From Prevotella sp. (GTDB lineage: Bacteria; Bacteroidota; Bacteroidia; Bacteroidales; Bacteroidaceae): a stretch of 64,000 nucleotides of DNA. The position numbers and the translations under genes were made by a program. Of this stretch, positions 32,297 to 53,236 are shown in pieces; the first letter of the stretch is position 1; each line of letters opens with the position of its first letter. Below the pieces are notes generated by a model. The model ran no database searches and was not told where the DNA came from. It saw only the letters and a program-made list of their open reading frames with translations. The stretch lies in the NCBI GenBank assembly GCA_017619755.1, contig JAFZRU010000031.1, forward strand, positions 32,875 through 96,874. Reading direction: 5' to 3'.

Positions 32297-34834
32297 ATGA
32301 CAAGAATGAGAACATTAATTACTTTGGCTGGCCTGACAGCCGCCACCTTCCTACCCGCCCAAGACCTCCAACTCAACGACCTCGACTATTTCGAACGCCA
32401 AGGAGTCAACATCCTTGTGTTCAGCAACAGTTTCAACGGAGGCTTCAACGACGAGAAAAACTCCGGCATCGAGGTGGTGCACCACGGCGTGCGCACCATC
32501 CAAGGCGGTGCCATCAGACTGAACAACACCCCGGAGCAGTGGGACCTCGTGCCAAAGATGACCAACAGGCGCATCGACCACGAGGCCAAGAGCATCGAGG
32601 TGAGCATGCGCTACGACGACTATGACTTCGACAGTCGCGTGGTGGTCACCGCCAAAGGAAAGGCGGTGGAGATCGCCGTGTGGCTCGACAAACCCGTCCC
32701 GGAGGCCATCGCAGGAGAGGCAGGCCTCAACTTGGAGTTCCTGCCATCACAATACTGGCTCAAAACCTTCATCGTGGATGGACGCTTGGGACGACTGCCA
32801 CGCTACGCCACCAGTGCCACCATCGCACGACCCAACAGCCAGAAACCCAGGCAGTTCAAGGGCTTCAAGACCTACGATGACCGAGGCACCGGACGCTTCA
32901 TCGACCCTCTGCCCATCGAACAAGGGCACGCCTTCACCCTCGCCACCGACGACCCGGAGCGCATGGTGAGCATCAGCAGCAGCGATGCCGAATTATCCCT
33001 CTACGACGGACGGATGCTGGCACAAAACGGATGGTTTGTCATCCGCAGCATCCTGCCCAAAGGACGCACCGGAAAGGTGGTGACATGGACCGTCGAGCCT
33101 CACGCCATCAAGGGATGGATAAGACAACCCAACATCGGCTTCTCACAGGTGGGGTACATCCCCGACCAGCCAAAGATTGCCGTCGTAGAACTCGACAAGA
33201 AAGACACGCCACGCTCCACCGCCACGTTGATGCGCATCGACGGCGAAGGCAAGGCGAAGGAAGCCTTCACCGCCACGCTCAAGCCATGGGGAGACTATTT
33301 CAAATACAACTACGTGAAATTCGACTTCACCCAAGTCACCGAGCCCGGCGTCTATTACATCCAATATGGCAACACGCGCACCAACGACTTCCTCATCGAC
33401 GAACATGTCTATGACAAAATCACCGACGCCACCACCGACGTGTGGGTGCCCATCCACATGAACCACATGTATGTGAACGAGGGCTACCGCACATGGCACG
33501 GCGAGCCATTCAAAGAAGGCTACCTGCAAGCCCCGCCCAGCGACCACTTCGACCTGCACTCCCAAGGCCCCACCACCGACACCAAATACAAACCCCTCGA
33601 ACTCATCCCGGGACTGAACATCGGAGGTTTCTTCGATGCCGGAGACTTCGACATCGAGACGGGCTTCAACATCAACGTGGTGCACAACTTCATCCGCACA
33701 TGGGAACTCTTCAAACCCATGCGCGACGAGACTTTTGTCAGTCAGGAGCAGCGATACGTGGACCTCCACCGACCCGACGGAATACCCGACATCCTGCAAT
33801 TCATCGAGCACGGCACCCTCAACCTTGTGGCTCAGGCAGAGCAGATAGGGCACATGGCCTCCACCCTCTCCAACTCGATTCTCGACAACTACCACCACTT
33901 AGGCGATGCAGCCAGCATCACAGACGGCAAGCACTACGACCCCTCGCTGAAACCCTACGAGACATCGGCCGACGGCAAGCGGAGCGGTACGCCCGACGAC
34001 CTGTGGGCCTTCACCACCCGCAACCCGTCGCTCGACCTGCAGGCCGCCACCATGTTCGCCGCCGCCAGCCGAGCACTCACCGGATACAACGACGCTCTGG
34101 CCGGGCGTGCCCTGACGCAGTCGAAGCGCCTCATGGAGGAAGCCACCGAACTGATGAAAGGACGGAACGAAAACAATGGCAACAACAGGAGAAACAGAGG
34201 CTCAGGAAACCTCTCCACCCAACTGCAGCTCTATGCCGCCACCAATGAAAAGCAATACCTCAACGCCTTCAACCAACAGATATGGAGCGCGCTTGACCGA
34301 GGCATGCTCCAAAATATGCAAACAGCACTCGACGCCATCCCATACATGGACGAAGGCTACCGCAAAAAACTGAAGCCATACGTGGTGAAATACTCACTAT
34401 ACATCGACAGCCTCAACAGCGACAACCCATACGGCGTACCCATAGGACTGGGCAACTGGGCGGGAGGAAATGCCACACTCAGTTTCGGCACCACCGTATG
34501 CTTCGCACACAGATACTACCCCGACGTCGTCAAGAGGGACGTCGTCTTCCGCACTGCCAACTGGCTCTACGGATGCCATCCCTACCACAACTACTCCTTT
34601 GTCGCAGCAGTGGGAGCCGCCAGACCCAAGGCCGTCTTCTACGGCAACAATCGCGCCGACTTCTCCTTCATCCCCGGCAACGTAGCTCCAGGTCTGCTCT
34701 TCAGGCATCCCGACCATTTCGAGAATTTCGACGACTGGCCTTTCCTCTGGGGACAGAACGAAGGCACCATCGCCGGAAACACACAATACATCATCTTTGG
34801 CTCCATCCTGAAAGACATCGTGGGAAAGAAATAA
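32297..34834 (+). CDS. Glycoside hydrolase family 9 (endoglucanase-type) with N-terminal beta domains
   Basis: 845 aa with a signal peptide (MTRMRTLITLAGLTAATFLPAQ). An N-terminal beta region (about 25-270), an Ig-like CelD_N-type module (IGFSQVGYIPDQPKIAVVELD, about 278-375), then an alpha/alpha barrel. Catalytic region GGFFDAGDFDIETGFN (about 438-453) supplies the Asp base/nucleophile pair as in GGWYDAGDY of GH9. Later family blocks are NWLYGCHPYHNYSFV and WGQNEGTIAGN, where the Glu should be the acid. Likely an endo-beta-glucanase or related glucan hydrolase in the periplasm or at the surface; the substrate is inferred from the family only. No SusC/SusD pair nearby. Confidence 0.87.
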   Translation: MTRMRTLITLAGLTAATFLPAQDLQLNDLDYFERQGVNILVFSNSFNGGFNDEKNSGIEVVHHGVRTIQGGAIRLNNTPEQWDLVPKMTNRRIDHEAKSIEVSMRYDDYDFDSRVVVTAKGKAVEIAVWLDKPVPEAIAGEAGLNLEFLPSQYWLKTFIVDGRLGRLPRYATSATIARPNSQKPRQFKGFKTYDDRGTGRFIDPLPIEQGHAFTLATDDPERMVSISSSDAELSLYDGRMLAQNGWFVIRSILPKGRTGKVVTWTVEPHAIKGWIRQPNIGFSQVGYIPDQPKIAVVELDKKDTPRSTATLMRIDGEGKAKEAFTATLKPWGDYFKYNYVKFDFTQVTEPGVYYIQYGNTRTNDFLIDEHVYDKITDATTDVWVPIHMNHMYVNEGYRTWHGEPFKEGYLQAPPSDHFDLHSQGPTTDTKYKPLELIPGLNIGGFFDAGDFDIETGFNINVVHNFIRTWELFKPMRDETFVSQEQRYVDLHRPDGIPDILQFIEHGTLNLVAQAEQIGHMASTLSNSILDNYHHLGDAASITDGKHYDPSLKPYETSADGKRSGTPDDLWAFTTRNPSLDLQAATMFAAASRALTGYNDALAGRALTQSKRLMEEATELMKGRNENNGNNRRNRGSGNLSTQLQLYAATNEKQYLNAFNQQIWSALDRGMLQNMQTALDAIPYMDEGYRKKLKPYVVKYSLYIDSLNSDNPYGVPIGLGNWAGGNATLSFGTTVCFAHRYYPDVVKRDVVFRTANWLYGCHPYHNYSFVAAVGAARPKAVFYGNNRADFSFIPGNVAPGLLFRHPDHFENFDDWPFLWGQNEGTIAGNTQYIIFGSILKDIVGKK

Positions 34835-39283: not shown

Positions 39284-40558
39284 ATGAAAAAATTATTCTC
39301 ATTTTTAGTGTTGCTCATAGCTATGAGTACAAACGTATGGGCCGAAGGATCACCCGTGATAACCTTATCCGGAGCCGTAGTGAAAAATGGAGAGGGATTT
39401 ATTACTCTTTCCATTGAATGCAATGGAGTGGAAGTCAGAGATATGCAGTGCGACATCATCTTGCCGATAGGATACGAGTTCAGCGAAGATGCAAGGGGCA
39501 AAGTAAAATATCGTAAATACAACCACCAAGATAATGCATACAACCCTGCTATTAATGAAGATGACAACGCTACCGAAAAAAACTCAACTGGAAGGTCAAG
39601 ACGTAGAGTGGTTTTCAATTCTACAACGGGAGCCCTTTTTAACGATGGTCCTTATCTTGATTTATATATCAAAATGACCAATGCAGCGACTCAAGATTTA
39701 GGTGAAACAGTTGATGGAACAGCGACGGGTAGTAATGAGTCCTCAGGTGACAAAAAAATCACCATCTCTTGTCAAGGTGGTGTGACAGCCCACCAGGACG
39801 ACACCAACTTTCCCATCACCGTTGTTGCTTCCATTTTGGACGAGGACACTGAAGGATACGATAATGATGATAATATACCAGAGACTGCCGAAGGACCCGT
39901 TTACTTGAGACGCGTCATCAAAGCTGGAATGTGGAACACCATTTGTCTGCCATTTGATATGAGCAACGAATTATTGACTAAATATTTCGGCTCGGATATG
40001 AAGTTGGCAAATCTCGGTGGAATAACCTTTAAGAATAATAACCAGGATATGGAAGTGAAATTCAAAAGTATCAAGTCACCTGCCATTGAAGCCAACCATC
40101 CATATCTCATCAAACTGGGATCTGAATTTACTAAAACCACTTGGTCTTTTTCCATCATAGACGATGTAACCGTCAATGCTGTGGATTTACCACTATTCAA
40201 AGCTGGAGACGCCACCTTCTATGGCACCTATGTCCTGACATCAATGACGGGTAGAAAAGCCACATACTATCATCCCATTTATCTACAAGAAAACAATATC
40301 TATTGGCTCAAGAATGGTAAAACTTTAAACTTAAAAGGATTTAGAGGATGGATGGAAGTTAAGGATATATCAAACTTTATAGACAACAATTCCAATGTGA
40401 ATTTCTTTGTTGACGACGATGAGATTGACGGCATCGATGGCATTACCATCAACAAGCCAGTCGAGGGTGTTTACGACCTTCAGGGCCGCAAGGTGAACGA
40501 CGAGCACCTGAAGAAGAGTATCTATATCATCGACGGCAAGAAGGTGGTAGTGAAATAA
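39284..40558 (+). CDS. Secreted protein of unknown function with C-terminal sorting-type tail
   Basis: 424 aa. Signal peptide (MKKLFSFLVLLIAMSTNVWA), then a beta-sandwich-like N-terminal part resembling cohesin/Ig-type folds (CNGVEVRDMQCDIILPIGYEF, residues 45-70), and a second beta domain with KAGMWNTICLPFDMSNELL (near 215) as in other large Prevotella surface proteins. The end GVYDLQGRKV ... IYIIDGKKVVVK parallels the tail of the GH43 enzyme at 15663. The tail suggests sorting to the cell surface by a type IX-like route, an inference. Codon use is more A/T-rich than in the GH9 region. Confidence 0.8.
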   Translation: MKKLFSFLVLLIAMSTNVWAEGSPVITLSGAVVKNGEGFITLSIECNGVEVRDMQCDIILPIGYEFSEDARGKVKYRKYNHQDNAYNPAINEDDNATEKNSTGRSRRRVVFNSTTGALFNDGPYLDLYIKMTNAATQDLGETVDGTATGSNESSGDKKITISCQGGVTAHQDDTNFPITVVASILDEDTEGYDNDDNIPETAEGPVYLRRVIKAGMWNTICLPFDMSNELLTKYFGSDMKLANLGGITFKNNNQDMEVKFKSIKSPAIEANHPYLIKLGSEFTKTTWSFSIIDDVTVNAVDLPLFKAGDATFYGTYVLTSMTGRKATYYHPIYLQENNIYWLKNGKTLNLKGFRGWMEVKDISNFIDNNSNVNFFVDDDEIDGIDGITINKPVEGVYDLQGRKVNDEHLKKSIYIIDGKKVVVK

Positions 40559-40600: not shown

Positions 40601-40810
40601 ATGAAAAAAACGTATTACAGACCAGAAACGGAGATAGAATCCATGATTTTGGAAAGCAATTTCCTCGGCCTCATAATTGGAGGCTCTGACCCAGATGAGG
40701 AATGGCCTGGCAGCGGTGGCGGCGGCAGCGGAGGTTTTGGCGACGTCAACCTCAACATTTCCTTTGATGAAGACGAGGAAGTTGTTGACCCCAAGTGGGA
40801 CTCCCTCTAA
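40601..40810 (+). CDS. 69-aa Gly/Asp-rich small protein
   Basis: Begins MKKTYYRPETEIESMILESN, the MKKxYxxPxTE pattern of abundant small Prevotella peptides, followed by a Gly/Ser run (GSGGGGSGGFGD) and a very acidic C-terminus (FDEDEEVVD). No signal peptide or membrane helix. 42 nt after the secreted protein. Its start resembles that of the peptides at 52245 and 52652, so all three may belong to one class of leader-type peptides. Confidence 0.6.
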   Translation: MKKTYYRPETEIESMILESNFLGLIIGGSDPDEEWPGSGGGGSGGFGDVNLNISFDEDEEVVDPKWDSL

Positions 40811-47124: not shown

Positions 47125-48036
47125 TCAGAAGAGTTTCTGCGGATAAACACCCTCTTCGATGAGTTGCTGGATGCGCTCCACCACTCCGGGGCGGTCGGCG
47201 GCGTATGTCACGCCAAACCACTTCGACGTAGTGTCGAGCACGCGAACTGTGGAGGTTCCTTCGTTGATGAGTTTGTTGACCATCAGTGGGATGAAGAACT
47301 CTGCCTTGGGATTCTCCATATTCTTGGGATTGGAGAGGAACTCCTTGAAATACGCCTCCGAGTGCGCGAAATAGTCGGGAGTGAAGCCCCACATGTTCAT
47401 ACTCACCGGGGTGTTCTCCTCAACGGGGCACCAGGTGCCCTCCTCGTCCTTATAGCAGATGGGGCCGTTGACGCGCATGATCTCCGTCCGCTCCACAACG
47501 GTGGTGAGGTTCTCCTGCTCATCCTTCGAGCAGATACCACGAGCCACGGTGCCGTTTTCGGAGAGCGTGTTGCCTACCCTGAAGCCCACCATGGCGTATT
47601 TGTTGGCGCTGCCCTCTGGGAGGTCGGCAAGGAATTTCCCAATGACCATGAAGGCGTCGCGGTTGTAGAAGTCATCGCAGTTGATGACGCAGAACGGCTC
47701 CTTGATGACATCGGCGGCCATCATGACAGCATGGTTGGTGCCCCATGGCTTCACTCTTCCCTCGGGAACGGAGAAACCTTCCGGCAGTGCATCGAGGCTT
47801 TGGAAGACGAGTTCGGCGGGGATGTGCCCCTCGTATTTGCTGAGGACCTTTTCCTTGAAGTCCTGCTCGAAGTCTTTCCTGATGACGAAGACGATTTTTC
47901 CAAAACCGGCCTTGATGGCGTCATAGATGGAATAGTCCATGATGGTTTCACCATTGGGGCCCAGTCCGTCGAGCTGCTTCAGTCCGCCATAACGGCTTCC
48001 CATGCCAGCAGCGAGCAATAGCAATGTAGGTTTCAT
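47125..48036 (-). CDS. Sugar-phosphate nucleotidyltransferase
   Basis: 303 aa. NTP-transferase fold: LLLLAAGMGSRYGGLKQL (5-22) is the nucleotide-binding signature, followed by FCVINCDDFYNRDAF with the metal Asp. It would make a nucleotide-activated sugar for envelope polysaccharides. Which nucleotide and sugar is not clear. Followed by the DHH gene after 7 nt. Confidence 0.85.
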   Translation of the reverse strand: MKPTLLLLAAGMGSRYGGLKQLDGLGPNGETIMDYSIYDAIKAGFGKIVFVIRKDFEQDFKEKVLSKYEGHIPAELVFQSLDALPEGFSVPEGRVKPWGTNHAVMMAADVIKEPFCVINCDDFYNRDAFMVIGKFLADLPEGSANKYAMVGFRVGNTLSENGTVARGICSKDEQENLTTVVERTEIMRVNGPICYKDEEGTWCPVEENTPVSMNMWGFTPDYFAHSEAYFKEFLSNPKNMENPKAEFFIPLMVNKLINEGTSTVRVLDTTSKWFGVTYAADRPGVVERIQQLIEEGVYPQKLF

Positions 48037-49688: not shown

Positions 49689-50261
49689 TCAAACAAAGTC
49701 GGTGAAGTTGGCGAGCAACTCCTTAGTGGTGATGTTCATACCTAAGGACCGCATCCTACGGCAAAAGACATTGGCCTGCTTGATTGCCCCACGGCGAAAG
49801 TCGGCGGCCATGGCTACAAGTGCCTCTATCTCTGTGGCATAGACAGAATCCTCCGTGAAGGGTGTGCGCATGTTCTTGAGCTGGTATGAAACCTCCCAAT
49901 AACCATTGAGTGTCTCTCCCAAATCTACCCATTCCGTCTCCACTTTTCTTACATATCCCACTCCCGGCACGCCGTTGATGGCGATGCGCTGCGTCACCCA
50001 TACCCTGTCGCCCACGGCGAAGCGTGGCGTGGGTTTTTGGTCGGCACTCTCCATCCTTTTCTCTCGAACACCATAGACGCGCCAAAAGTCATCGAGAAAA
50101 GAGCTGCTGTCCTCCCCATGAGTTTCCAACACAGTACGCAACTGTTGCAGTTCCTCTTCGGAGAAATCTCTTCTTCTGAAACCGTGGAGCAGCAATTCCT
50201 TGTCGATGCTTGCCTCAAGGTTGAGGTTCATCACCACGTCCTCGTTCTTGTCATTTATCAT
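49689..50261 (-). CDS. Hypothetical cytoplasmic protein
   Basis: 190 aa from the ATG at 50261 (the TTG two codons upstream is less likely). Helical N-terminus (LRTVLETHGEDSSSFLDDFW) and a central beta segment (PRFAVGDRVWVTQRIAINGVPGVGYVRKVE), resembling a small SH3-like barrel, followed by helices. No signal peptide. No family recognised. It converges with the AraC gene. Confidence 0.65.
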   Translation of the reverse strand: MINDKNEDVVMNLNLEASIDKELLLHGFRRRDFSEEELQQLRTVLETHGEDSSSFLDDFWRVYGVREKRMESADQKPTPRFAVGDRVWVTQRIAINGVPGVGYVRKVETEWVDLGETLNGYWEVSYQLKNMRTPFTEDSVYATEIEALVAMAADFRRGAIKQANVFCRRMRSLGMNITTKELLANFTDFV

Positions 50262-50496
50262 AAGCAATGGTTTTATCTTCCAAATGATTCAATTGAAGAT
50301 TTCACGCCGCTAAGATAGCAATTTTTCCCCTATCCTCAAAACAAACAACCTTTTTTTTCTGCGATTTCCCGCTTTCATCGAGATCATCCCCAACTCTCCA
50401 CTGTTCCGTTTGTTGCTGTATGACAGCAACCCCTCCACACTGGCGCAGCATACATGTAGTAAAATGGTAGCAGGAAGTAGAAAAAGAGGATAAAAA

Positions 50497-50574: not shown

Positions 50575-51393
50575 ATGGATCGTATCAGGAAATACTTGTC
50601 GAGCCGCAATCTGCAGGAGCGCGACCGCTGTCTGCTCTGGCTCACCTCTTTTGGCATTCAGTCTGTGGTGGAATTGACCCCGAGCGACGACCTTCTTCGT
50701 CTCATCGAACACCATATCAATGGCAATTGGAGCATGGAACGCACCTACGACGAGGTGCGAGCCTTCTACCATGCTCGCCATGAAAACGACCATGGCCATC
50801 ACCACCGACATGAAGAGGCCGACAAGGTATCTGCCCGCATCGTGAAATATTTCTTGGAGGGCGACTTCTCCCTGTCGTTGGATTCGTTCTGCTCCACCCA
50901 CCGCACCATGTTCCACAACCTCTACCGCCATTCCGGACAACTGCGGGAGGCTGCTTTCAGCAAGAAAGAGTGGGTGCTGGGCAGCGTGTCGGTGATTTAC
51001 CCACGCCCCGATGAGGTGCGTGGCTTCTTGGAGTATCTTTTCGATGAGGAGCGCCACGTGGACTTGTCGAAGATGACGGAGCGACACCAGTTGCGGCATC
51101 TTTGCGAGTTCATCGCAAAGTTATTCAGAATCAATGCTTTCCAATATGCCAATAGTCGCACGACCTTTGTCTATGCGATGAAATATCTTATGAGTTTGGG
51201 GTATCGTTTCCAAAACGACACCTTTGCGCGTGAGGCATGGTATTTCCGCAATGCCATCATCCGTGCCTGCTATGCCAATATGCACCAAGGTGTTTATCCC
51301 ACAACGGAATACATGGAGATGTTTTTGGGCAACCTCTTCCTTGACGAGGAGAATGAGTTGCGTAACCACCGAATGGTGATCAGGGGCGAGTAA
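50575..51393 (+). CDS. Fic/DOC-family protein with degenerate active site
   Basis: 272 aa. The overall pattern follows Bacteroidetes Fic proteins: EEADKVSARIVKYF, KKEWVLGSVSVIY, RHLCEFIAKLFRI and, after the motif, MKYLMSLGYRF ... REAWYFRNAIIRA. The AMPylation motif HPFxxGNxRTT is here NAFQYANSRTT (187-197). Thus the catalytic His is Asn187 and the first Gly is Ala192, while Phe189, Asn193, Arg195 and the two Thr remain. AMP transfer is therefore unlikely by the known mechanism. The His-rich stretch HENDHGHHHRHE (69-80) is unusual. The gene is intact with a strong promoter and converges with the S26-PqqD gene, overlapping it by 14 nt. Confidence 0.75.
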   Translation: MDRIRKYLSSRNLQERDRCLLWLTSFGIQSVVELTPSDDLLRLIEHHINGNWSMERTYDEVRAFYHARHENDHGHHHRHEEADKVSARIVKYFLEGDFSLSLDSFCSTHRTMFHNLYRHSGQLREAAFSKKEWVLGSVSVIYPRPDEVRGFLEYLFDEERHVDLSKMTERHQLRHLCEFIAKLFRINAFQYANSRTTFVYAMKYLMSLGYRFQNDTFAREAWYFRNAIIRACYANMHQGVYPTTEYMEMFLGNLFLDEENELRNHRMVIRGE

Positions 51394-52135
51394 CCTTTCT
51401 CACCAACCCACTCTGCAACCACGCCAAGAGGAGTTGACCGCAGTCATCTTTGGCCGTCTGGCGGTCAACATCATAAAGGCTGACGATGACGTCCGTCAGG
51501 TCATCGAGCGTGAACTCACTCTTGTCCTTCACCTGCTCCCACAAATCCTTTGCCGTCTCATTGAATGTCAGCACATGCTGCATATCCACAAGGTGTTTTA
51601 GCGTATCGACCATGATGGCGGCCTGCCGAACGGTGTCGAGACGGATGCCCGGCATCCTCTGGTAGAGAGCCATGGTGTCCACCACACTCCGTTCCTCGCT
51701 AAGAGGCTCTTTCGCCCCATCCCCCACCACAAGCACCACCTTGGCCACAACATCCTTTCTTTGTGTCATTTCGGTGGTTTTGTTGTTGTCGCCCTTGAGA
51801 GTGAGAGTCTCCCCGTCGATTTTCACAATGCGATGCATCACGTAGTGGTCTTTTTCTATCTCTGCCAGCACAATGTCGCCCTTTTCCTGCCTGTCCACGG
51901 CTCTCAGCACCACGATGTCGGTGTTGTGGTGGATGGCAGGGAGCATACTGACCCCGGCAGGCACCATTTTCACATCGTACCCATTGCGGAGGTATGGTTT
52001 CATTGTTTGAAAAAACCTCGCATTGTCCACCTTCGCGGTCGTAATGTCTTCACTTTTGCCCCTCGACTGGCGACAAGCGGGAGCGAGAAACCCCAAAACG
52101 AAAAGCCCGGCAAAAAAAATAAAAATCTTCCTCAT
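51380..52135 (-). CDS. Exported S24/S26 signal-peptidase-like protein fused to a PqqD-like domain
   Basis: 251 aa. N-terminal hydrophobic export signal ending FLAPAC (a loose lipobox, Cys21). Residues 58-120 match a SipW/Sec11-type signal peptidase: Ser63 in GVSMLPAI, His101 in MHRIV and KGDNN at 114-118, giving a Ser/His pair. Residues about 186-246 (VLTFNETAKDLWEQVKDKSEF ... LLAWLQSGLV) resemble PqqD, the peptide-recognition fold of RiPP pathways. Two paralogous small peptide genes lie directly upstream on the same strand. A maturation protease that binds peptide leaders is a reasonable inference. The export signal is odd for a RiPP protease, which normally works in the cytoplasm or within a transporter. 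Confidence 0.75.
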   Translation of the reverse strand: MRKIFIFFAGLFVLGFLAPACRQSRGKSEDITTAKVDNARFFQTMKPYLRNGYDVKMVPAGVSMLPAIHHNTDIVVLRAVDRQEKGDIVLAEIEKDHYVMHRIVKIDGETLTLKGDNNKTTEMTQRKDVVAKVVLVVGDGAKEPLSEERSVVDTMALYQRMPGIRLDTVRQAAIMVDTLKHLVDMQHVLTFNETAKDLWEQVKDKSEFTLDDLTDVIVSLYDVDRQTAKDDCGQLLLAWLQSGLVRKVTRP

Positions 52136-52202
52136 GGCACACCTTATTATATATAGTGACTATAGCCACCATTCTCATCTTTGAGCACTCTCAAAAAGAA
52201 AA

Positions 52203-52225
52203 AAGCCAGGCTTGGAGCCTGGCTT
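52203..52225 (-). terminator. Intrinsic terminator of small peptide gene A
   Basis: 10-bp stem AAGCCAGGCT/AGCCTGGCTT, 3-nt loop, followed on the minus strand by a T-rich run. Nearly the same hairpin ends peptide gene B. Confidence 0.9.
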
Positions 52226-52244
52226 GTGTTCTCTCAACTGTGAA

Positions 52245-52367
52245 TTAGAAGAGGGGAGCCTCGCCTGTGGGCTCACCAGCATTGTCAGATACGCTGATGG
52301 AGGGCTCGCAGATAGCGTTAACATTCACAGTGACGACCTTGGTCATCGGTTCTGAATAAATCTTCAT
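52245..52367 (-). CDS. 40-aa small peptide A, RiPP-precursor-like
   Basis: ATG at 52367, TAA at 52247-52245. Starts MKIYSEPMTKVVTVNVNA and ends with 22 residues identical to the end of peptide B (beginning ICEPSISV, ending GEAPLF). One Cys. No signal peptide. It has its own promoter and terminator. Conservation of the C-terminal half between paralogues, with a variable N-terminal half, is unusual; in many RiPPs it is the leader that is conserved. Upstream of the S26-PqqD gene. Confidence 0.65.
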   Translation of the reverse strand: MKIYSEPMTKVVTVNVNAICEPSISVSDNAGEPTGEAPLF

Positions 52368-52412
52368 AACTGTAAATTTTAATTGTTAAACAATAAATGA
52401 TTAAAAACGATA

Positions 52413-52443
52413 CAAAGATAGGTATTTTTTGCATACTGACAAA
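52413..52443 (-). promoter_or_regulatory. Predicted promoter of peptide gene A
   Basis: TTTG (52443-52440), a 19-nt spacer, TATCTTTG (52420-52413) on the minus strand. Confidence 0.8.
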
Positions 52444-52536
52444 AGGAATCACGATTTTTTTTTAAAAATCCGTGTTTTTTGTCATAAAAAGGGGGTTTTC
52501 ACTAAAAAACGTAAAAGAAAGAGAGTTATTTTGAAA

Positions 52537-52569
52537 CTATAAAAACTATAGTCACTATATATAATATAG
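52537..52569. repeat. Microrepeat with 9-bp period (CTATA)
   Basis: CTATA-type cores at 52537, 52546, 52555 and 52564, degenerating afterwards. Located between the two small peptide genes. Confidence 0.75.
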
Positions 52570-52609
52570 AAACTGGACACCATGCTTCCATAGACATTAT
52601 AGCCAAAAA

Positions 52610-52633
52610 AAGCCAGGCATTTCTGCCTGGCTT
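52610..52633 (-). terminator. Intrinsic terminator of small peptide gene B
   Basis: 10-bp stem AAGCCAGGCA/TGCCTGGCTT, loop of 4, followed on the minus strand by a T7 run. Confidence 0.9.
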
Positions 52634-52651
52634 GTTGTTCTCGTCTGTGAA

Positions 52652-52777
52652 TTAGAAGAGGGGAGCTTCGCCAGTGGGCTCGCCAGCATTGTCAGAAACG
52701 CTGATAGAGGGCTCGCAGATAGCCTTAACATTCACATTCACAACCTTAGTTGCGGGCACGAAATAGTTCTTTTTCAT
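52652..52777 (-). CDS. 41-aa small peptide B, paralogue of peptide A
   Basis: ATG at 52777, TAA at 52654-52652. Starts MKKNYFVPATKVVNVNVKA and then shares the identical 22-residue C-terminal part with peptide A. The DNA of the shared part differs at several third positions, so the duplication is not brand new and the protein sequence has been kept. Own promoter and terminator. Confidence 0.65.
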   Translation of the reverse strand: MKKNYFVPATKVVNVNVKAICEPSISVSDNAGEPTGEAPLF

Positions 52778-52836
52778 AATGGTAAATTTTTAATGTATTA
52801 ATACAGTTAAATAATATGAGTGTTAGAAACACGTTG

Positions 52837-52868
52837 CAAAGATATGTATTTTCCTTTTACCCACCAAG
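52837..52868 (-). promoter_or_regulatory. Predicted promoter of peptide gene B
   Basis: CTTG (52868-52865), a 20-nt spacer, TATCTTTG (52844-52837) on the minus strand. Confidence 0.7.
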
Positions 52869-53002: not shown

Positions 53003-53236
53003 TCAGTGTTTTAGCTTGTTCCAAAGCAAAAGGACGACGATGGCGCCAACGGCGGCGGTGCCGATTTGACCAATGGTGCCACCCCATGAGATTTTGAGGA
53101 TGTCAAAGAGCCATCCTCCTACGAGGCCTCCCACAACACCCAAGAACAAGTCTATCAAGCATCCTTTTCCCTCTCCTGAGGTGAGGCGCGATGCGATGTA
53201 ACCGGCTAAAATGCCTACAATGATGGAATAAATCAT
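53003..53236 (-). CDS. GlsB/YeaQ/YmgE-type small membrane protein
   Basis: 77 aa with three hydrophobic Gly-rich helices (IIVGILAGYIASRL, FLGVVGGLVGGWLF, IGTAAVGAIVVLLLW). Matches the transglycosylase-associated/GlsB stress membrane protein family in length and Gly pattern. Function in envelope stress is known only by association. Monocistronic. Confidence 0.85.
   Translation of the reverse strand: MIYSIIVGILAGYIASRLTSGEGKGCLIDLFLGVVGGLVGGWLFDILKISWGGTIGQIGTAAVGAIVVLLLWNKLKH

Follow-up and report, generated by a model that had tools for sequence, protein, structure and literature searches.

Twin small peptides and a signal-peptidase-like protease fused to a PqqD-like domain in Prevotella: candidate components of a RiPP-like maturation system

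The locus discussed here raises the question whether two very small genes of a Prevotella species, which encode peptides with different beginnings and the same end, specify precursors of a processed product, and whether the protease encoded directly downstream takes part in their maturation. The genes lie in a stretch of 64,000 nucleotides (positions 32,875 to 96,874 of contig JAFZRU010000031.1, GenBank assembly GCA_017619755.1), called the window throughout, which is contig C43 of genome G000 (3.7 Mb, 86% complete). Its nearest named relatives are RUG13814 and RUG13201, metagenome-assembled genomes of uncultured Prevotellaceae in whose names RUG presumably stands for rumen. A first-pass annotation had proposed an unrecognised peptide-maturation system, an interpretation that is partly supported by the present analysis. 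We estimate a probability of about 55% that the twin peptides are precursors of a system resembling those of ribosomally synthesized and post-translationally modified peptides (RiPPs), or at least of a leader-processed system, and that the fused protease (S26-PqqD) is their maturation factor. The central features are the following, where RRE denotes a RiPP recognition element.

52652..52777, minus strand: peptide gene A, 41 amino acids, MKKNYFVPATKVVNVNVKAIC (leader-like) followed by EPSISVSDNAGEPTGEAPLF (core)
52245..52367, minus strand: peptide gene B, 40 amino acids, MKIYSEPMTKVVTVNVNAIC followed by EPSISVSDNAGEPTGEAPLF (core)
52655..52714, minus strand: core half of peptide A, identical in protein sequence to that of peptide B
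52248..52307, minus strand: core half of peptide B, with the protein sequence of the peptide A core
51380..52135, minus strand: S26-type protease with PqqD/RRE-like domain, predicted lipoprotein, 251 amino acids (profiles, alignment, fold search)
52073..52135, minus strand: putative signal peptide with lipobox-like Cys21 (Cys after A/S/G in 8/8 full-length relatives)
51755..51958, minus strand: S24/S26 protease domain, residues 60-127, with Ser63 and His101 (Pfam Peptidase_S24)
51401..51580, minus strand: PqqD/RRE-like domain, residues 186-245 (Pfam PqqD)

Open reading frame coordinates and alignment agree on two small minus-strand genes (40 and 41 amino acids) with a shared C-terminus, which comprises 22 residues, or 23 if, by eye, the Ala before Ile is counted. 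Over the 20 codons that follow the conserved Cys, the DNA of the twins has five synonymous and no nonsynonymous differences. Since synonymous sites differ, assembly duplication is excluded as the origin of the pair, and the twins are two real genes; they are also the only copies found when genome G000 was searched. The window peptides matched no model in Pfam, NCBIfam or PHROGs at E ≤ 1, and the relatives tested gave no convincing match to family models. That the peptides are themselves lipoproteins can be excluded, as Ile or Val usually precedes the conserved Cys and Met replaces Cys in genomes G263 and G094; these Cys-to-Met changes also exclude a thiolactone between Cys and C-terminus like that of autoinducing peptides.

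The reading frame of the 251-residue protein starts 109 bp downstream of the peptide B gene. Its description as a PqqD domain fused to a Ser63/His101 protease is confirmed by matches above the gathering score to Pfam PqqD (1.6e-9, residues 186-245) and Pfam Peptidase_S24 (7.5e-7, residues 60-127), by conserved residues (Ser63 in 9/9 aligned relatives that cover the position, His101 in 10/10) and by fold matches. The best profile for the protease, TIGR02228, scores 33.8 bits and is below the model cut-off of 51.85, and NF046067 reaches 26.1 against a cut-off of 190; archaeal/SipW signal peptidase profiles gave E-values of 2.8e-8 and 5.3e-6, and LexA 1.7e-5. Matches to the protease domain prevailed in a fold search with the whole model, so the PqqD part was given a model of its own; its best fold matches were, tied, the leader complexes of TbiB1 and TfuB1. 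In the predicted structure the C-terminal domain is thus PqqD/RRE-like in fold, and the first outcome named as one that would undo the proposal is not observed. The protease had been called exported. It is better described as a predicted lipoprotein: a hydrophobic stretch followed by a Cys preceded by Ala, Ser or Gly can be read from the alignment in 8/8 full-length fusion sequences. Searches of Protein Data Bank sequences with two queries (A5, A3) returned nothing at E ≤ 0.01, and PADLOC had no match for the fusion or for an ATP-grasp protein.

The same gene trio recurs in other Prevotellaceae. A first profile built from four peptides (those of the window and of locus L004, apparently the same contig as C44 of G225) found further members in the genus, and a wider profile of 33 peptides (A6) was searched in 398 genomes. 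At E ≤ 1e-8 it matches 16 genomes (G000, G009, G060, G073, G087, G094, G110, G201, G225, G261, G263, G305, G349, G379, G400, G417), 15 of which had contributed rows to the profile. Another 61 genomes have weak matches only (E up to 0.01), chiefly in the leader, and no convincing member outside the genus came from a search across the order (3/149 genomes at E ≤ 0.01, the window genome included). At least two peptide copies are present in 13 of the 16 genomes; in G060 the contig stops inside the second copy, and G349 has pieces at contig ends. The second copy of G009 (L093, 7341-7500) has a frameshifted leader and a preserved shared core, the other family copies being intact. Flanking genes are shared too: in every genome except G094 (15/16), at least one peptide contig has cysE-vsr to one side or a Fic-like gene to the other.

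The fused S26-PqqD gene lies within the peptide block in the window and in loci L004, L085, L086, L088, L089 and L095, and close to contig ends in L003, L171 and L173; in L171 the tail of a family-like peptide is found at the contig start, 1.1 kb upstream of the fusion. At E ≤ 1e-50 the fusion occurs in 9/398 genomes, all among the 16 with peptides (Fisher test, 2e-14), a value to be read with the relatedness of the genomes and the presence of seven of the nine in the profile in mind. The peptide family is also found in other contexts (G201, G094 and contig C39 of G087). In three loci the twins are facing inverted repeats, so that the segment between them could invert (L087, 7243-8948; L088, 7709-8440; L089, 8083-8901), and in L087 they enclose an ATP-grasp gene.

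The two halves of the peptides evolve differently. Between species (13 ortholog comparisons), the part up to Cys has nonsynonymous (pN) and synonymous (pS) differences of 0.031 and 0.27, and the part after Cys of 0.323 and 0.60. Together with the opposite pattern within genomes, this supports, at the level of sequence, a conserved leader followed by a product-defining core, and a precursor of that composition is what characterizes RiPP systems. Within genomes, the N halves of 12 twin pairs have a pN of 0.076 and the C halves of 0.016 (pS 0.165); including the C6/C41 pair of G201, the C-half values become 0.023 and 0.178. Across 13 twin pairs the cores are identical in nine and differ by one to three residues in four. 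The excess of synonymous change in the twin cores argues for selection for one shared core. Gene conversion may contribute, but is rejected as the sole cause, since synonymous changes without matching nonsynonymous ones require selection too.

If the peptides are precursors, modifying enzymes might be expected near them. The first-pass annotation noted no adjacent radical SAM or transporter gene, which is correct for the window: among 14 neighbouring proteins scanned (about 44-59 kb) no radical SAM or transporter family scored above cut-off, and two of the 14 (47125-48036 and 49689-50267) matched nothing above cut-off. For the family, absence of modifying enzymes does not hold, as an ATP-grasp gene is present in the loci of six relatives and a TIGR04133 gene in four others. 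The ATP-grasp gene lies in the peptide block, at most about 3.3 kb from the peptides, in G379, G400, G417, G110 and G009, and in G305 a 28-residue end of it is seen next to the peptides at a contig edge. Pfam ATPgrasp_ST matches the four tested copies (1e-33 to 1e-36). An ATP-grasp profile finds 13/398 genomes at E ≤ 1e-40, of which the top ten, four being profile members, are all peptide-positive and the three weaker ones peptide-negative. In a tree of 23 proteins, in which the placement of long-branched rows is unsure, copies located elsewhere in G073, G225, G087 and G263 form one group (99/99) with those in the blocks of G379, G400 and G417, to the exclusion of paralogs, many of which lie in capsule-type clusters; the ATP-grasp copies seen in G261 are of the capsule type. 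An ATP-grasp on contig C3 of G000 was rejected as a partner, being no ortholog and located, by eye, in a polysaccharide-type cluster. Arrays of two to five ATPgrasp_ST-like genes were observed in loci L162, L163, L164 and L165, some of them in capsule-type clusters.

In the four other loci (contigs G087 C39, G201 C28, G225 C37 and G263 C158), a radical SAM/SPASM gene (family TIGR04133) stands head to head with genes for peptides of the same leader type. The usual neighbour of TIGR04133 is a small lipoprotein, with YG[GPS] in 9/10 inspected and YGVP in the tenth; 1/6 TIGR04133 partners scanned passed the TIGR04134 cut-off. The core motif YGPP, YGPA, YAGP or YGA is present in 7/7 peptides beside TIGR04133 and 0/28 elsewhere (Fisher test, 1.5e-7), a contrast whose weight is lessened by the post hoc choice of the pattern, the non-independence of the rows and the use of an internal start for the G225 peptide. 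Tyr is absent from all 28 cores away from TIGR04133, and the profile of four twin peptides alone recovers 6/7 of the peptides beside it (1.5e-5 to 0.012). TIGR04133 was found in 27/80 genomes searched, namely 11/16 with peptides and 16/64 others. The YG cores are the strongest hint that the leader family may serve as a scaffold for enzymatic core modification. In L098, L174, L227 and L231 a twin-type leader is combined with a YG core, as if another precursor scaffold had received the motif that the enzyme usually targets, and these radical SAM loci resemble a natural graft of this kind.

On the sequence evidence, namely the domains and their fold matches, the conservation of the locus, the evolution of leader and core, the adjacent enzymes and the YG motif, the following route may be proposed. 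The leader would be residues 1 to Cys21 (Cys20 in the shorter twin) and the core the 20 residues after it, with -[E/D]xPLF at the end; this core is common to the twins and different between species. The leader, prone to form a beta-strand (TKVVxVNV), would be bound by the PqqD/RRE-like domain and cleaved off by the S26 Ser/His protease close to the junction of Cys and Glu. As S26-PqqD is a predicted lipoprotein, this step would take place outside the cytoplasm, after export of the peptide. For relatives, tailoring of the core is probable, with an ATP-grasp ligase as the enzyme in six loci and the TIGR04133 radical SAM enzyme, acting on YG-motif cores, at others. From the divergence of the cores between species, a role as species-specific signal or toxin might be guessed.

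More tentatively, and at less than even odds, the family may be a new Prevotella class of RiPP-like systems with duplicated precursors that have differing leaders and one species-specific core, with an extracytoplasmic RRE carried by an S26-like lipoprotein, and with a leader scaffold on which cores, and the enzymes that tailor them (ATP-grasp or TIGR04133), can be exchanged, so that genomes could swap chemistry via the core motif. If maturation proceeds as proposed, a PqqD-type domain would be working, unusually, outside the cytoplasm together with a signal-peptidase-like leader protease. Genome miners would also be likely to miss the family, because the window peptides match no model and have no GG leader, and the locus offers no radical SAM or transporter gene as an anchor.

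Known systems offer partial parallels. The B protein of lasso peptides likewise pairs a PqqD/RRE domain (B1, of which TbiB1 and TfuB1 are examples) with a leader protease (B2). The B2 protease is of the cysteine type, whereas the window protease is an S26 serine type and a predicted lipoprotein; no lactam synthetase/asparagine-synthetase-like cyclase or B2 cysteine protease was recognised among the scanned neighbours, no genome-wide search having been made. Signal peptidase I of the SipW/Sec11 type (MEROPS S26) has the same Ser/His arrangement and fold and gives the top profile (TIGR02228), but the window protein differs by its C-terminal RRE-like domain, its lipobox-like start and its score below the cut-off. 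With TIGR04133/TIGR04134 systems the comparison is through relatives, in which the twin-type peptides beside TIGR04133 carry a YG motif like the usual lipoprotein partners, whereas the window locus has neither enzyme nor motif. Graspetides also combine an ATP-grasp with short precursors rich in Asp/Glu and Ser/Thr/Lys; here the enzyme belongs to Pfam ATPgrasp_ST and a ring motif is not conserved in the cores, and neither PF14397 nor "sugar-transfer" occurs in the main text of a graspetide survey (PMC8939145). DAG-RiPPs, which are RiPP-lipoprotein hybrids, likewise involve the lipoprotein pathway in peptide maturation; there the precursor is the lipoprotein (PMC12636315), whereas here it is the protease. 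The terms "S26", "signal peptidase" and "PqqD" are all absent from the main text of a review of RiPP leader proteases (PMC10885120). In the open-licence literature we found no paper on the S26-PqqD fusion or these peptides, nor on TIGR04133/TIGR04134 or ATPgrasp_ST/PF14397.

Several observations weigh against a precursor role of the twins with S26-PqqD as maturation factor. Neither a signal peptide nor a GG leader is obvious in the peptides, yet the protease is predicted to be a lipoprotein, and protease and peptides may thus not come together; no part of the model is weaker than this extracytoplasmic topology, and none is more novel. The window genome shows no ATP-grasp ortholog, which may be due to incompleteness, and no TIGR04133, and the window cores have no YG motif. 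No conserved ring motif or donor-acceptor pattern was seen in the cores of A6. The block ATP-grasps of G110 and G009 branch separately in the tree, and ATPgrasp_ST relatives in the peptide genomes occur in capsule-type clusters, so that peptide modification is not the sole role of this family. The shared-core rule is broken at radical SAM loci, by the pair on G201 C28 and the triple on G087 C39 (14/34 to 21/29 identical); such exceptions are limited to these loci and leave the window locus unaffected. Wide occurrence of the peptides without a nearby S26-PqqD gene had been named as an outcome that would undo the proposal. It is seen in part, in G379, G009 and G261, in the G263 assembly (where a contig break separates the twins) and in the other contexts given above. 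Since the family also occurs without it, the fused gene is an optional partner and not a defining part.

This leads to the strongest alternative, which we consider unlikely but serious: that shared ancestry alone accounts for the association, the peptides being unprocessed members of a large Prevotella family and S26-PqqD serving elsewhere, as the unfused HprK-S26-PqqD genes beside rpoD would. The carriers may be one lineage: orthologs of the Fic-like flank gene (at least 56% identity) occur in 5/110 genomes, all peptide-positive, so that ancestry confounds the co-occurrence. In genomes without peptides only distant Fic-like relatives were found (30-41% identity), and an empty-site search therefore cannot separate insertion from clade effects. 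A wider leader family is also recognised. A profile of 15 other peptides (A7; start MKK-Y--P-t-vv, often ending -WDD), from which the twins were excluded, recovers both twins of the window (1.3e-9 and 4.5e-8) and, in the same genome, up to eleven further places at E ≤ 0.05, of which one is a profile row, two have a stop and several are weak. At least four wider-family peptides lie directly 3' of genes for large, probably secreted proteins (by eye). Likewise by eye, no core-modifying enzymes were seen within 1.5 kb of related-leader peptides elsewhere in the genome, which does not favour a maturation role. Unfused S26/PqqD genes have a match in 33/60 genomes; next to an HprK-like gene, and in many loci near rpoD, they are common in the genus. 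Of 20 unfused loci inspected, 19 have no twin-leader peptide by profile or pattern in the stretch covered, and L054 has a wider-family peptide 1.8 kb away. Set against this, a family peptide lies 0.07-5.3 kb from the fusion in 8/10 loci (including the contig-edge tail of L171), the two remaining contigs (L003, L173) stop at the gene, the association is kept despite rearranged gene order, and a protease with an RRE-like domain is what a peptide precursor would need.

Improbable is a surface ligand or decoration, in which the ATP-grasp would join the peptide, through its -PLF end or acidic side chains, to a polysaccharide or the envelope, and S26-PqqD would free or position it. The ATPgrasp_ST family is named for sugar transfer and has close relatives in capsule-type loci, the protease has a lipoprotein-type N-terminus, and GT2 and EptA-like genes are present in the G110 locus (Pfam), with look-alikes, by eye, of both in G009 and of GT2 in G349. 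However, envelope genes were seen in these three loci only, the window genome does not have this ATP-grasp, and -PLF peptides also occur beside radical SAM genes without ATP-grasp. A regulator pair, with the S24/LexA-like fusion as self-cutting sensor and the peptides as signals, is hardly credible given the lipobox, the lack of a recognised DNA-binding domain, profiles that favour archaeal/SipW signal peptidase over LexA, and, in the alignment, His at the position of a Lys base.

Further features of the locus concern expression and surroundings.

52837..52844, minus strand: -7 promoter box TATCTTTG of peptide A, 67 nt upstream of the ATG
52413..52420, minus strand: -7 promoter box TATCTTTG of peptide B, 53 nt upstream of the ATG
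52610..52633, minus strand: terminator hairpin of peptide A, about 10 pairs
52203..52225, minus strand: terminator hairpin of peptide B, about 10 pairs
50575..51393, plus strand: convergent Fic-like gene, 272 amino acids (Pfam Fic 5.6e-6; PDC-S72 1.4e-76), flanking the locus in many relatives

A terminator with a stem of about 10 bp behind each twin was correctly noted before. The claim that each twin has its own consensus promoter holds for the -7 box, whereas a -33 TTTG is present only for the 40-residue gene. A TAnnTTTG box within 200 nt accompanies 34 of the 35 family peptides and a hairpin with T-run 33 of them, but a TTTG in the -33 window only 19. The 3' end of the Fic-like gene overlaps the end of the protease gene; it matches PDC-S72, a candidate phage-defence family, and its Fic motif seems, by eye, degenerate. 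Unfused PqqD, S26 and HprK-like genes are also found near rpoD on contig C42 of G000 (L035, 7044-8909). In the window a 69-residue MKK-Y--P peptide (40601-40810, plus strand) lies just behind a probably secreted protein of 424 residues (about 39284-40558), a layout repeated at several further sites of the genome. In three different contexts (L099, 9040-9276; L174, 611-883; window, 53003-53236), a gene for a small transglycosylase-associated membrane protein is located no more than about 3 kb from the peptides.

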